The notes below the pieces were generated by a model. The model was given only the letters and a program-made list of their open reading frames with translations. It was not told the DNA's origin and made no database searches. Made by a program: the position numbers and the translations under genes. From contig NZ_JAJUHW010000017.1 of the NCBI RefSeq assembly GCF_029265695.1, positions 1-54,679 of the forward strand: a DNA stretch of 54,679 bases, read 5' to 3'. This document shows, in pieces, positions 13,129-20,347 of this stretch. This DNA is from Gracilinema caldarium (GTDB taxonomy: Bacteria > Spirochaetota > Spirochaetia > Treponematales > Breznakiellaceae). Position 1 is the stretch's first letter, and each line of letters begins with the position of its first letter.

Positions 13129-13743
13129 ATGGATATTCAATTGCAGGAACTGATTGATAAAATAAAGAAAGACGGAGTGGAATCCGCATCGGTTCAGGCC
13201 GAAAAAATTATTCAGGATGCACAATCTGAGGCACGCAAAATCGTAGATGCTGCAAAAAAAGAAGCCGATACGATTGTAGCTGCTGCAAAACGGGATGCTG
13301 AACGGTCCGAAAAGGCTGGTATTGCCGCAATAGAACAGGCCTCCCGCAATTTGCTTCTTAGTTTCCAGTCAGAGATTCAGAAACTTTTGGATGCGGTGGT
13401 TCGGCGGGAAGTAACCGCTGCCTTTGATGATGAAGCCCTCAAGACAGCGATTCCTCAGATTATTACTGAATGGGCTCGGAAAGATAAGGATGAGCTTGCG
13501 GTATTGCTGCAGGCTGATACCTTGGCACGACTCGAAGGTTATTTTGCAAAAAAACTGTCTGCAGAACTTGCAAAGGGTGTGGAATTAAAATCCGATCGGA
13601 ATCTTGCTGCGGGCTTCCGAATTGCTTCAAAAGATGGTTCTGCTTATTATGATTTCTCCGCAGAAGCCGTAGCAGAGCTGATGTCTGCTTATCTTAATCC
13701 TCGGCTGGCTGAGCTCATTAAGTCTGTAGCAAAGGGGCTGTAA
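13129..13743 (+). CDS. atpE: V-type ATPase subunit E
   Basis: A 204-residue peripheral-stalk subunit. Residues 1-95 form a long amphipathic helix rich in Ala, Lys and Glu (IIQDAQSEARKIVDAAKKEA), and the C-terminal half is the globular E domain that contacts the catalytic head. It acts as a stator between the A3B3 head and subunit I. The gene has a strong GAGAGGAG site upstream and is followed after 3 bases by the DUF2764 gene. The typical partner subunit G/H is not recognisable in the operon. Confidence 0.9.
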   Translation: MDIQLQELIDKIKKDGVESASVQAEKIIQDAQSEARKIVDAAKKEADTIVAAAKRDAERSEKAGIAAIEQASRNLLLSFQSEIQKLLDAVVRREVTAAFDDEALKTAIPQIITEWARKDKDELAVLLQADTLARLEGYFAKKLSAELAKGVELKSDRNLAAGFRIASKDGSAYYDFSAEAVAELMSAYLNPRLAELIKSVAKGL

Positions 13744-13746
13744 ATC

Positions 13747-14352
13747 GTGGGTTCCTATTACTATCTGGTTTCACAGCTGCCTTCATTAAATTATGGTGTT
13801 TCGGCTGCTATAGAAACTAAGGATTTTGTGGACCTGTGTAAAACCTTTCTTACTCCACAAGATTTTTTCCTCCTACAATCCTGCCGATTAGATCCAGAGG
13901 GACTTCAACCGGGCAGCCTAGGACAGGGGTATCAAGAGATGCCAGAACCGCTTGGGTCCTATCTGCTTGATAATTGGAGAACATGGGAGCGAGCTTTGAG
14001 ACTGCACCTCGCACGGTTCAGACTGCAGCATTTAAAACGCGAAGGTGCTCATATTGCCGATGGACCTGCAGAACCAATGGATGCAGCCACGGTTGCTAAA
14101 AATGCAGCAGCTATGGAATCTCCTCTTGAAGCCGAACTGTTTCTGGATCGGGCCCGATGGGTAACGATTGAGAATTTGCAGGGTTTTGACTATTTCGGCC
14201 GGGATACGATCTATGCGTACTACCTTAAGCTGCAACTGATAGAACGGAAGCAGAAATTTAAGGTTGATGAAGGATTTGAAGCTTATCAGGGGCTCTATGC
14301 TTCCATTATGGATGCGGCCCAATCTAGAATATATGCGGGAGAACCGAAATGA
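13747..14352 (+). CDS. DUF2764 protein of the V-ATPase operon (subunit C/d-like candidate)
   Basis: A 201-residue protein with the DUF2764 opening YYYLVSQLPSLNYG, seen only in V-ATPase operons of spirochetes, chlamydiae and Bacteroidetes, always between subunits E and A. The start is GTG at 13747 with AAGGGG upstream; the next gene overlaps by 4 bases (ATGA). Because this operon type lacks the C/d subunit that joins the rotor shaft to the membrane ring, DUF2764 is a likely functional replacement; its tyrosine-rich helical character fits, but this is inference. Confidence 0.88.
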   Translation: MGSYYYLVSQLPSLNYGVSAAIETKDFVDLCKTFLTPQDFFLLQSCRLDPEGLQPGSLGQGYQEMPEPLGSYLLDNWRTWERALRLHLARFRLQHLKREGAHIADGPAEPMDAATVAKNAAAMESPLEAELFLDRARWVTIENLQGFDYFGRDTIYAYYLKLQLIERKQKFKVDEGFEAYQGLYASIMDAAQSRIYAGEPK

Positions 14353-16109
14353 TCGGAACTAAGGGTACAGTAGTAGCCGTTAATGGCAATATGGTCGGCG
14401 TCCGTTTTGAAGGCGTTGTGTCGATGAACGAAGTCGGCTATGTAAAGGTTCAGGATAAACGACTAAAAAGTGAAGTCATCCGTATTAGAGGTGATCTTTG
14501 CTATCTTCAGGTTTTTGAAATGACCAAAGGCATCGCGGTAGGTGACACTGTTGAATTTACCGGCGATATGCTTTCGGTAGAAGTGGGCCCGGGCCTTTTG
14601 GGGCAAGTTTTCGACGGTCTCCAGAATCCTCTTCCAAAACTGGCGGAGGAAGCGGGTTATTTCCTTGAACGGGGTATTTATCTTGATGCCCTGCCTCTGG
14701 ATGCGCAATGGGAATTTACCCCTGCGGTCCAGGTTGGCGCCATGGTTGAGCGGGGAGATACCTTGGGTACCGTACCCGAGGGTGCTTTTACTCATCAAAT
14801 CATGGTCCCCTTTAATATGTACGGCCGCTATACGGTGGCATCTATAAAACCAAAAGGAACCTACCACGTCCGGGATTCTATCGCTGAACTGGATGACGGC
14901 AAGGGAAACCGAATTCCCGTGGCCATGTCGTTCCGCTGGCCTGTTAAGCGTGCGGTGGACTGCTATGCGGAACGGCTTAAACCGGTAGAGCCCATGGTTA
15001 CCCGGGTTCGCCTCATCGATACCTTCTTTCCTGTGGCCCGTGGAGGCACCTACTGTATACCAGGTCCTTTCGGTGCAGGAAAGACGGTGCTCCAGCAGAT
15101 AACGAGCCGTCATGCAGATGTGGACGTGGTAATCATCGCCGCCTGCGGTGAACGGGCCGGCGAAGTTGTAGAAACTCTTAAAGAGTTCCCCGAACTGTTG
15201 GATCCCAAAACTGGCAGATCCCTCATGGAACGGACAATCATTATTTGTAATACCTCTTCCATGCCCGTAGCGGCCCGTGAAGCTTCCGTATACACCGCGG
15301 TTACCCTGGCAGAATATTACCGGCAGATGGGGCTCCATGTATTGCTTCTGGCAGATTCAACAAGCCGCTGGGCACAGGCCATGCGCGAAATGTCGGGCCG
15401 GTTGGAGGAAATCCCCGGAGAAGAGGCCTTCCCCGCATATCTAGAATCGGTAATTGCCGCCTTCTATGAACGGGCAGGCATTGTGCGGCTCAAGGATGGC
15501 CGCACCGGTTCGGTAACCATCGGCGGTACCGTATCTCCCGCGGGCGGTAACTTCGAAGAGCCAGTTACCCAGGCAACCTTAAAGGTCGTCGGCGCCTTCC
15601 ATGGTCTTTCCCGCGAACGGTCAGACGCTCGCAAGTACCCTGCTATTCATCCGCTTGATTCGTGGTCAAAATACAAAGGTATTATCGATGGACAGAAGGT
15701 AGCCTATGCACATAAGTTCATGTCCCGGGGCAGTGAAGTAGAACAGATGATGAAAGTTGTCGGCGAGGAAGGAACCAGTCTGGATGACTTTATTATCTAC
15801 CTTAAGGGTAATTTCCTTGACTCAGTTTACTTCCAGCAAAACTCCTTTGATGCTGTCGATGCTGCGGTCAGCCCTGAACGGCAGAAACACGTATTCTCCA
15901 TACTGCTTACAATTCTTGCTTCCCAGTTCAAATTTAAGGACAAGGAAGATGCCCGCAGCTGGTTCAACCGGCTCAGGCAAAAATTCTTGGACTACAATGG
16001 ATCGGAATGGAAGAGCGAGCGCTTTGCAACGCTGGAAAAAGAAATACTCGAAGCAGTTTCCGAACGCTCCGCGGGTCTTGATAAAAACGCGGAAAAGATT
16101 CTTGCATAG
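14349..16109 (+). CDS. atpA: V-type ATPase catalytic subunit A
   Basis: A 586-residue catalytic subunit that binds and turns over ATP in the A3B3 head. The P-loop GPFGAGKT lies near 238-246, the catalytic glutamate lies in CGERAGEV, and the non-homologous region typical of A subunits is present before the P-loop. Motifs [13 protein letters not shown] and [16 protein letters not shown] are intact. It overlaps DUF2764 (ATGA) and is 14 bases upstream of subunit B, with GGAG before the next start. There is no sign of an intein or truncation. Confidence 0.98.
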
Positions 16110-16123
16110 GACGGAGTGGCGAA

Positions 16124-17422
16124 ATGAAAAAGGTATACAGCAAAATAGAATCCATTACCGGTAACGTCATTACCGTTCGCGCAACGGATGTACGCTACGG
16201 CGATCTGGCTGAAATTGATACTGCCTTTGGAACTTCCCTGGCGGAAGTCATTCGTTTGCAGGATGACCTGGTATCCTTGCAGGTTTTTGCCGGCGGCCGC
16301 GGAATTTCAACCGGCGATACGGTCCGGTTTTTAGGCCATCCCATGAGAGTTTCGTTCTCTGAAAACCTTATGGGCCGGGTCTTTACCGGTTCAGGTTCTC
16401 CCCGGGACAAGGGACCGGAAATGAAAGAAAACCTCATTCCCATCGGAGGACCATCGGTTAATCCTTCCAAGCGAATTATTCCCCGCCGGATGATCCGTAC
16501 TGGTATCCCCATGATCGACCTTTTTAATACCCTGGTCGTATCCCAAAAGCTTCCGATATTCTCCGTTTCAGGTGAACCTTACAACGAACTCTTGGCTCGG
16601 ATTGCCATGCAGGCCGAAGTCGATGTCATAATCCTCGGCGGTATGGGTCTTAAATACGATGACTATCTCTATTTTAAGGATACCCTGGAGGAAGGGGGTG
16701 CCCTTTCACGGACGGTTATGTTTGTTCATACCGCCGCAGACCCGGTAGTAGAATGTCTTATGGTACCCGACATTTCCCTTGCGGTGGCTGAACAATTTGC
16801 TTTACAGGGTAAAGACGTGTTAGTACTCCTCACGGATATGACTAACTTCGCCGATGCCATGAAGGAAATTGCCATTACCCAGGAACAGGTTCCATCAAAC
16901 CGCGGTTATCCTGGAGACCTTTACAGTCAGCTTGCCGCCCGTTACGAAAAGGCTGTCGATTTCGACACCGCAGGCTCTATCACTATACTGGGCGTTACTA
17001 CCATGCCCGGTGACGACGTAACACACCCGGTTCCGGATAATACCGGATATATTACCGAGGGGCAGTACTATCTTAAAAACGGCCGTATCGAACCCTTTGG
17101 ATCCCTGTCCCGTCTTAAACAGCAGGTAAATGGCAAGACCAGGCCAGATCATCGCGCCTTGATGGACGGTATGATAAAACTCTACGCGGCGTATAAGGAT
17201 ACGCTGGAAAAGAAGGCCATGGGCTTTATGATGTCCGACTGGGACCGGAAACTTCTTAAGTACGGCGAATTGTTCGAAAAGGAAATGATGGATCTTTCGG
17301 TTAATATTCCCCTTGAACGGGCCCTTGACCTGGGATGGGAAATACTCGCTTCCTGTTTCTCTCCCGAAGAAACGGGATTGAGAACCGAACTGATCAATAC
17401 CTATTGGCCAAAGAAAGCGTAA
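16124..17422 (+). CDS. atpB: V-type ATPase regulatory subunit B
   Basis: A 432-residue non-catalytic nucleotide-binding subunit that alternates with A in the head. As expected, it lacks a Walker A lysine: the equivalent stretch is [15 protein letters not shown]. The B-type signatures [17 protein letters not shown] and [15 protein letters not shown] are present. Length is slightly below the usual 440-470. It follows subunit A after 14 bases and precedes D by 13 bases with GGAGGA. Confidence 0.97.
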
Positions 17423-17435
17423 GGCCGGAGGATCT

Positions 17436-18038
17436 ATGGCCAAGATTAAGCTTACAAAAAATGAGCTTAAAAAGCAGAAGGATGCGCTTAAGATGTATCA
17501 GCGCTATCTGCCGACGCTCATGCTTAAAAAACAGCAACTCCAAATGGAAATCCGGAATACAGAAAACCGTATTCGGGTCCTTATGGAAGAAAAAAATAGG
17601 GTGAATGAACAATTTAAAAGCTGGATTGCTGTGTTCGGCGAAGAAGGGTATTTTACTCCAGAGCTCCTCTCGGTCACATCCATTCACGTTGACTCTGGAA
17701 ATATTGCGGGTGTTGAAATCCCCGTGTTTAAGGGAGCTGAATTCCAGGTTCAACCCTATGATGTATTACGGACACCCTTATGGATCGATACTGCGGTAGA
17801 ACGGATGCGGCAGGTGCTGCTGCTTGATTTGGAAGCAAAAACATTGGAAGAACAGCAGCGTCGGCTTGAACGGGAGTTGCGTACCACCACACAACGGGTC
17901 AACCTGTTTGAAAAGGTTAAAATTCCCGAAACTAAAAGCAATATAAAAAAAATCAGGGTATATCTCGGAGATCAGCAAACCGCCGCTGTCGTACGGGGTA
18001 AAATCGCGAAGCGTGGAATGGAGAGGGCTGCACAATGA
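17436..18038 (+). CDS. atpD: V-type ATPase subunit D (rotor shaft)
   Basis: A 200-residue subunit forming the central coiled-coil shaft that turns inside the A3B3 head. The N-terminal helix has the D-family opening (LTKNELKKQKDALKMYQRYLPTLMLKKQQL), and the C-terminal helix (LEEQQRRLERELRTTTQRVNLFEKVKIP) pairs with it. GGAGGA lies 6 bases ahead of the ATG. Its usual partner F is not encoded here. It overlaps subunit I by 4 bases. Confidence 0.93.
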   Translation: MAKIKLTKNELKKQKDALKMYQRYLPTLMLKKQQLQMEIRNTENRIRVLMEEKNRVNEQFKSWIAVFGEEGYFTPELLSVTSIHVDSGNIAGVEIPVFKGAEFQVQPYDVLRTPLWIDTAVERMRQVLLLDLEAKTLEEQQRRLERELRTTTQRVNLFEKVKIPETKSNIKKIRVYLGDQQTAAVVRGKIAKRGMERAAQ

Positions 18039-19894
18039 TTGTACCCATGAAAAAGGTCTCTCTAGTCATTTTTGATCGCGAAAGGGAAGCATCTCTTGAT
18101 GCTTTGCGAAAACTTGGGGTGCTTCACCTCGAGCAAAAGGGCATTGTTTCGGAGTCCCTCTCCGCTGTCATGGAAAAGAAAACCCAGGCAGAACATGCTC
18201 TTGGCATTCTGAGAAATTTTGCGGCAAAAAAAACGCAACCCAATACCAGTGAAGCAGAAGTACAGGCTGAGGAGCTCGTTACGCTTGTTTTAACCCTTTT
18301 CGATCAGCGTAAACAAGAACAAGAATTGTTGGCTTCTGACTTTAAGGAGCTCTCAAGAATTCAGTCCTGGGGTGATTTTGATCCTGCAGGCTTAGAGGAG
18401 CTTAAGCAAAAGGGTATTACTCTTATCCCTTATGAACTTCCGAAAAAGGTATATGAACATATTGATCCTTCAATAGAGATCCTTACCCTGTCAAAGGATA
18501 AAAATATGGTTCGCTGCCTTGCGGTAGGTACTCCTATTCCCGGAGAGACCCCCTTTGCCTTGCCAGAGCTTTCAACTGCCGCGCTTTCGCAGCGGATTGA
18601 GAAGCGAAAACAAACTATTGCGGACATAGAACGGAGGCTTTCAGCCCTTTCTGTAAACCAGGGATTAATTGAAGGCTATATAAAGAAATTAAACGAAAAG
18701 GCAGAATTCGAAGCTGCAAAGGCAAGCATGGAAGTTACCGAAGATACGCCTCCTGGACTTGCTATTTCTTGGATACATGGCTATATCCCGGCTGACGTCG
18801 CGGGCAAGCTAAAACGGGCTGCTGCAGAAAACGGCTGGGCCCTTCTCATCGACGACCCTTCGGAAGGCGATGCTCCCCCGACCCTTGTTCGCAATCCACC
18901 TTACATCAGAATTGTGCAGCCCATTTTTGACCTTCTTGGTACTGTGCCGGGTTATCATGAATATGATATCAGCATGTCCTTCCTGGTCTTTTTCTCCCTC
19001 TTTTTTGCCATGATTATCGGAGACGCAGGATACGGCGTTTTGATTTTGCTGCTGAGTCTGTGGGCTGGATTAAAAGGTAAACAGAAAACAGGGAAAATTG
19101 CGGATGGGGTACTTCTTTTGTTGCTGCTTTCTTCTGCAACAATTATTTGGGGTGCAATAAATGGCACCTGGTTTGCGCTCCCTTACGAAAGTTTGCCGTC
19201 TTTCTTGAAAAGCTTGGTTATTCCTCCTTTTAGGCCAAATCCTGCGTTGTCTTCTAAAGAAGCAGCTCGTTTGGTACAGCAGAACGTAAAGCACCTGTGT
19301 TTCATTATAGGGACAGTACAGCTTGTATGGGCTCATACAAAAAATATTAAAAAAGCACTGCCTTCATTAACTGCCTTTGCACAGCTCGGTTGGCTTTCAA
19401 TGGTTTTAGGACTTTATTTTCTCGTACTGAACCTGGTGCTTGACAAGACCGCCTTTCCGGTTCCGCCATTTGCCCTCTGGATGATAGGGGGCGGGCTTGT
19501 CACCTATTTTGTATTTGCCGAACAGAAAGGAGGAAACTTTTTTGCTAATATTTTAAAGAGTTTTGCCAACTTTCTGCCGACCTTTCTTTCTGCGGTATCA
19601 AGTTTCTCTGATATTATCAGCTACATTCGTCTGTTTGCAGTTGGACTTGCGGGTTATGCTATCGCAGAGAGTTTTAACGGTATGGCGGCGGGGCTTCCAG
19701 GAGGCTTAGTCAGGATACTCGCGGGGGCCCTCATACTGTTCTTTGGACATGGGCTTAACCTGGCAATGAGCGCCCTTTCGGTTGTCGTTCATGGGGTTCG
19801 GCTTAATATGTTGGAATACTCCGGCCATCTCGGAATGGAATGGTCTGGTGTCAAATATTCGCCCTTTGCTGTAAAAGAAACTTCCCAGCAATAG
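18035..19894 (+). CDS. atpI: V-type ATPase subunit I (membrane stator subunit a)
   Basis: A 619-residue subunit. The N-terminal 310 residues are a soluble stalk-contacting domain with coiled coils; residues 320-600 carry about seven or eight membrane helices. The essential ion-path arginine is Arg532 in SYIRLFAVGLAG. This subunit forms the two half-channels next to the K ring. ATGA overlap with D; K follows after 27 bases with AAGGAG. Length and motif order are normal for the bacterial family. Confidence 0.96.
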   Translation: MIVPMKKVSLVIFDREREASLDALRKLGVLHLEQKGIVSESLSAVMEKKTQAEHALGILRNFAAKKTQPNTSEAEVQAEELVTLVLTLFDQRKQEQELLASDFKELSRIQSWGDFDPAGLEELKQKGITLIPYELPKKVYEHIDPSIEILTLSKDKNMVRCLAVGTPIPGETPFALPELSTAALSQRIEKRKQTIADIERRLSALSVNQGLIEGYIKKLNEKAEFEAAKASMEVTEDTPPGLAISWIHGYIPADVAGKLKRAAAENGWALLIDDPSEGDAPPTLVRNPPYIRIVQPIFDLLGTVPGYHEYDISMSFLVFFSLFFAMIIGDAGYGVLILLLSLWAGLKGKQKTGKIADGVLLLLLLSSATIIWGAINGTWFALPYESLPSFLKSLVIPPFRPNPALSSKEAARLVQQNVKHLCFIIGTVQLVWAHTKNIKKALPSLTAFAQLGWLSMVLGLYFLVLNLVLDKTAFPVPPFALWMIGGGLVTYFVFAEQKGGNFFANILKSFANFLPTFLSAVSSFSDIISYIRLFAVGLAGYAIAESFNGMAAGLPGGLVRILAGALILFFGHGLNLAMSALSVVVHGVRLNMLEYSGHLGMEWSGVKYSPFAVKETSQQ

Positions 19895-19921
19895 GGCATA
19901 TTACATGATAAGGAGAAGATT

Positions 19922-20347
19922 ATGGATATCGGAATGATTGGTGTTGCTGCTGCATTGGGCCTTTCAGCTTTTGGTTCTGCCCTCGGAGCCGGTATTGCCG
20001 GTATGACCGCCATCGGTTCTTGGAAAAAATGTTTCTTGCAAAACAAGCCGGTGCCGTTCCTCTTGGTCGCCTTCGCCGGTGCTCCTCTTACCCAGACCAT
20101 TTATGGTTTTATATTGATGAATGCTATTAGAAGTGGCGGCCTTGACGGAGTCGGTAAGTTGGCAGTGGGCCTTTTTGCCGGACTTGCCATGGGAGCTTCA
20201 GCTCTTTATCAGGGAAAAGCCGCAGCCTATGCATCCGATGCATTGGCAGAGACTGGACAGGGCTTCGGTAACTATATTCTTGTGGTAGGCCTTATCGAAA
20301 CTGTTGCACTCTTTGTGATGGTTTTCTCCCTGGGTATCGCAGGTTAA
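19922..20347 (+). CDS. atpK: V-type ATPase proteolipid subunit K, probable Na+-binding ring
   Basis: A 141-residue, four-helix proteolipid formed by two fused hairpins; only the second carries the ion carboxylate, Glu126 (LIETVAL). The first hairpin has APLTQTIYGF with Thr57, Gln58 and Tyr61, and the third helix has ALYQGKAAA with Gln97. These line up with Thr64, Gln65, Tyr68, Gln110 and Glu139, which form the Na+ site of Enterococcus hirae NtpK, so sodium coupling is likely. This is the last gene of the operon; a terminator follows 23 bases later. Confidence 0.95.
   Translation: MDIGMIGVAAALGLSAFGSALGAGIAGMTAIGSWKKCFLQNKPVPFLLVAFAGAPLTQTIYGFILMNAIRSGGLDGVGKLAVGLFAGLAMGASALYQGKAAAYASDALAETGQGFGNYILVVGLIETVALFVMVFSLGIAG

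Follow-up and report, generated by a model that had tools for sequence, protein, structure and literature searches.

The V-type ATPase operon and the fold of subunit K

The analysed stretch of the Gracilinema caldarium contig NZ_JAJUHW010000017.1 (54,679 nucleotides, the window hereafter) contains a V-type ATPase operon in the order E-DUF2764-A-B-D-I-K at 13129-20347, with the proteolipid gene K as its final gene (Table 1). The nearest named records to the window were Treponema sp. M74 (100%), a MAG labelled Treponema denticola (89%) and Breznakiella homolactica (88%). The K ORF scored 198 bits against NF005174, the NCBIfam spirochete equivalog for V-type ATP synthase subunit K (cut-off 127), and 46.4 bits against PF00137 (cut-off 24). 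Its score of 29.6 bits against NF005124 (PRK06558), another V-type subunit K equivalog, was below the cut-off of 127; K shares its kind with the members of that family and belongs to a different subfamily. No C/AC39, F or G subunit was recognisable between 13129 and 20347. The operon does hold a DUF2764 protein (PF10962).

Table 1. Genes of the V-type ATPase operon and ion-site codons of subunit K
Feature	Position	Strand	Evidence
V-ATPase subunit E-like (peripheral stalk)	13129..13743	+	NF002424, 229 bits, just below cut-off 241
DUF2764 protein, between E and A	13747..14352	+	PF10962, 35.4 bits, cut-off 24.1
V-ATPase subunit A (catalytic)	14349..16109	+	NF003220
V-ATPase subunit B	16124..17422	+	NF002555
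V-ATPase subunit D (central shaft)	17436..18038	+	NF002565
V-ATPase subunit I/a (stator)	18035..19894	+	PF01496 and NF004429
ntpK/atpK, V-ATPase proteolipid subunit K	19922..20347	+	141 aa ORF; NF005174
Ala54 codon (NtpK Leu61, backbone-carbonyl ligand position)	20081..20083	+	alignments; Ala in 48/48
Thr57-Gln58 codons (NtpK Thr64-Gln65, discriminating Na+ ligands)	20090..20095	+	T/S and Q in 48/48
Tyr61 codon (NtpK Tyr68, which fixes the carboxylate Glu; present in proton-type c as well)	20102..20104	+	
Gln97 codon (NtpK Gln110, discriminating Na+ ligand)	20210..20212	+	Q in 48/48
Glu126 codon (NtpK Glu139, ion-binding carboxylate)	20297..20299	+	E in 48/48

Helices were predicted at residues 3-39, 47-71, 76-111 and 115-140 of K, placing Glu126 within the fourth. 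An AlphaFold2 model of a single K subunit, made with a 48-row alignment as input, had a mean pLDDT of 90.6, and Foldseek and VIA-align matched this model end to end to Enterococcus hirae NtpK (2bl2_A) and to other four-TM V-type c subunits. VIA-align gave a Z of 16.9 and an rmsd of 2.3 over 137 residues for 2bl2_A, and slightly better values, with Z up to 18.1, for eukaryotic proton-type c subunits. The modelled fold is that of a V-type c subunit and, since the eukaryotic proton-type proteins rank above 2bl2, fold alone does not separate Na+ rings from H+ rings.

Register of the ion-site residues with NtpK

The initial annotation had matched five residues of K to those of the Na+ site of NtpK, and placed an Ala at the Leu61 position. 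BLASTP, MAFFT, hhalign (run with the 48-member K profile) and hmmsearch all supported this register, aligning T57/Q58/Y61 with T64/Q65/Y68, Q97 with Q110, E126 with E139 and Ala54 with Leu61 of an NtpK reference sequence that we verified to be identical to PDB 2bl2 chain A. The spacing from Gln to Glu is 29 residues in both proteins. A two-sequence BLASTP search of K against NtpK gave 27% identity (E 5e-9), and hmmsearch with the 48-member K profile against the PDB returned 2bl2 as the best match (E 7e-4). Searching the PDB with K alone (phmmer) found nothing at E 0.01 and, up to E 10, only weak Thermus matches, so a profile was needed.

Six NtpK residues (L61, T64, Q65, Y68, Q110 and E139) make up the published site, in which Y68 holds E139 rather than Na+ (PMC10382590); PMC2359735 gives the same list and the same role for Tyr68. 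The human proton-type c subunit has Ile at all three of NtpK positions 64, 65 and 110 and retains the Tyr and Glu. Thus, all five signature residues are present in K as first claimed, but the Na+ signal resides only in T57, Q58 and Q97, as Tyr61 and Glu126 are common to proton-type c. Eukaryotic V-ATPase c subunits (6wlw, 6vq6) resemble K in fold and share the Tyr and Glu, differing by Ile at these three discriminating positions, and belong to proton pumps. A rule stated in PMC2359735 links a polar residue at the Gln65 position to Na+ enzymes and an aliphatic one to proton enzymes. A proton-type c subunit would have an aliphatic residue there and an incomplete ligand set; K has Gln58 and the complete set. 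K further combines the features of a Na+-type rotor subunit, namely a fused double hairpin (4 TM), a single carboxylate in helix 4, and equivalents of T64, Q65, Q110 and E139 plus Y68. The spaced ligand pattern appeared in 0 of 200,000 shuffles of the K protein, showing that it is not due to chance.

NtpK itself is likewise a four-helix fused double hairpin with one carboxylate and the T/Q/Y/Q/E ligands. Apart from the low identity, K departs from it in having Ala for Leu at the backbone ligand and PLT in place of PGT before the ligand Thr, in falling within NF005174 and outside NF005124, and in an operon without recognisable C, F and G subunits.

Conservation of the site among spirochetes

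K-like matches were found in 189 of 296 genomes of the phylum that were searched. In an alignment of K with 47 relatives, Ala54, Q58, Y61, Q97 and E126 were each invariant (48/48) and position 57 was Thr in 43 sequences and Ser in five. The full ligand set also occurs in 14 Borrelia-like genomes and in a genome of 1,139,633 bases (G056). Among the spirochete K loci read, (T/S)Q..YG and the Gln and Glu were retained with one clear exception, L034; helix 2 of L039, which ends at a contig edge, was left out of the ligand judgement. Its conservation across the 47 aligned relatives shows the ligand set to be a real, old and clade-wide trait that is not peculiar to the window locus.

The adjoining Ala-Pro-Leu and Gly residues were just as invariant in the 48-sequence alignment, as might fit a role of the conserved polar residues in helix packing or ring assembly instead of ion binding. 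We consider such a role highly improbable: the polar residues that never vary coincide exactly with the Na+ ligands seen in the crystal structure, and a proton-type protein of the same fold has Ile in their place.

The exceptional locus, L034, lies in a relative from the same family (G177), where SLSNVIYG and TQAM replace PLTQTIYG and YQGK and the Gln65 ligand position is Asn. Judging from these substitutions, this K may have lost Na+ specificity, making it a natural test case. Close relatives of spirochete K (58-67%) were also seen in records labelled Aminicenantes, Ruminococcaceae, Omnitrophota, Clostridia, Neomarinimicrobiota, Lachnospiraceae and Clostridiales (L096, L110, L112, L126, L127, L129 and L150); these spirochete-like K genes in non-spirochete records would reflect either gene transfer or mislabelled bins.

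Coupling ion and a second V-type ATPase

The PF00137 search of the window's genome (G000) found two loci only, K and the proteolipid of locus L033, with no F-type c subunit and no third proteolipid. L033 (contig C34, 1578-10099) is a second, complete V-type operon that encodes C/AC39, I, a single-hairpin proteolipid, F, A, B and D, of which A, B and D were recognised from ORF translations. This enzyme is of the same class as the K enzyme but differs in its single-hairpin proteolipid and in having C and F, and its site, AEGICLWG, has Gly/Ile where a Na+ ring has Ser/Thr plus a polar residue (Thr/Gln in K). AEGICLWG was identical in all 20 second-type loci read; the Gln of the first helix is replaced by Lys or Arg in some. 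The L033 proteolipid is proton-type under the published Gln65 rule, and its enzyme is probably proton-coupled. Second-type proteolipids were matched in 79 of the 99 genomes of the order and, judged by these signatures, two V-ATPases of unlike ion type per cell are common in the order, G056 included; the cell that carries the window likely runs Na+ and H+ rotary machines separately. A 4.06-Mb genome of the same family (G212) encodes, in addition to the two V-type c subunits, a third one that is F-type-like (L176, ALAESTAIYG).

The window's genome also encodes three NqrB/RnfD-family genes with Rnf/Nqr-type neighbours and the beta subunit of a Na+-pumping decarboxylase; a membrane pyrophosphatase gene was not found in it. 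The presence of the Rnf/Nqr-type and decarboxylase genes makes a supply of, or use for, a Na+ gradient plausible, as circumstantial evidence. On contig C18, L075 is a third, divergent Rnf/Nqr-like set whose RnfC-like protein carries C-terminal ferredoxin-type cysteine motifs.

We judge that K, with good probability, builds the rotor of a bacterial V-ATPase coupled to Na+. Na+ coupling had been proposed for "this spirochete V-ATPase"; the complete, in-register and clade-conserved ligands and the several Na+-pump gene sets in the genome speak for the K enzyme, and the proposal extends to one of the two V-type enzymes only, as L033 is without the ligands. Residues, register, fold, conservation and gene context are observed here; occupancy by Na+, coupling ion and direction of operation we infer as follows. 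Each K folds as two fused hairpins and would hold one Na+ mid-membrane, coordinated by the Glu126 carboxylate, the Thr57, Gln58 and Gln97 side chains and the Ala54 backbone carbonyl, while Tyr61 keeps Glu126 in place. ATP hydrolysis by A/B/D would turn the K ring past subunit I, each site taking Na+ from the cytoplasm and releasing it outside; in reverse mode, a Na+ gradient would drive ATP synthesis. Occupancy of the site depends on outside Na+ and pH.

The V-type enzyme of Thermus is proton-coupled, and its aligned chain sequence retains a Gln and a Glu-Thr at matching places. This is consistent with an alternative in which the spirochete enzyme is proton-coupled or ion-promiscuous, keeps an ancestral Na+ site and carries protons or both ions according to habitat. 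PMC2359735 points the same way, describing some Na+ ligands that persist in proton enzymes and Na+-dependent ATPases that translocate protons if Na+ is absent. Because Na+-type enzymes can do so, coupling cannot be shown by sequence, and the ligands in K are necessary, not sufficient, for Na+ coupling. Two observations nevertheless make this alternative unlikely: the Gln65 ligand is absent from the Thermus and eukaryotic proteins (Leu/Ile), and the full set is near-invariant over highly diverse spirochetes, which implies selection on the entire site, although the Asn in the G177 relative demonstrates that the position can change.

Deducing Na+ coupling from such ligands is established practice (Mulkidjanian 2008; Chitinispirillum 2016). 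For c/K subunits it goes back to PMC2359735, which names Treponema and Borrelia among the organisms with a V-ATPase. By description, the V-ATPase of Chitinispirillum alkaliphilum (operon KIDBACE) resembles the present one in that Na+ coupling was inferred from the K motif and that Rnf and oxaloacetate decarboxylase form its context; it differs in belonging to another phylum, in listing a C subunit and in coming from a haloalkaliphile in which Na+ use is expected (PMC4814513). The Na+ reading had been set against a usual assumption of proton coupling. That assumption is in print for Borrelia, where a review presumes that the V-ATPase maintains a proton gradient (PMC4033020). For Treponema, sodium energetics had been proposed in 2001: according to PMC5142292, Haese et al. 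held that the energetics of T. pallidum depend entirely on sodium motive force. An Rnf pump driving an ATP synthase is now proposed for this organism (PMC7512555). The present analysis contributes a survey across the clade, the pairing of two ion types in one genome and the predicted Na+-only state of Borrelia-like genomes.

In ten Borrelia-like genomes (family f6, main contig of ~0.9 Mb), K was the only PF00137 protein. Its gene lies mostly near base 86,000, and all f6 K loci read had the full ligand set. Neither PF01992 nor PF01990 proteins were found in the six Borrelia-like genomes tested, which hold only the K-type enzyme. We give about even chances to a broader scheme in which, for K-only spirochetes including the Borrelia-like ones, a Na+ pump is the sole rotary ATPase, Na+ forms the primary ATP-driven gradient and any proton gradient is secondary, two-enzyme relatives such as the window's genome use two ions, and the Na+ version is a reduced machine with DUF2764 and without recognisable C and F. 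If the K enzyme is coupled to Na+, many spirochetes, relatives of the syphilis and Lyme disease agents among them, would draw their energy from a sodium circuit of Rnf/Nqr, decarboxylase and V-ATPase, in contrast to the proton circuit presumed for Borrelia. With V-ATPases of the Na+ type and the proton type side by side in a single genome, a two-ion economy can be tested directly.

Six f6 genomes each carry one divergent NqrB/RnfD-like domain. In G076, G101, G134, G237, G234 and G254, an ORF of ~770-780 codons near base 67,000-77,000 of contig C1 contains such a divergent NQR2/RnfD/RnfE domain (E ~1e-9 to 1e-15).
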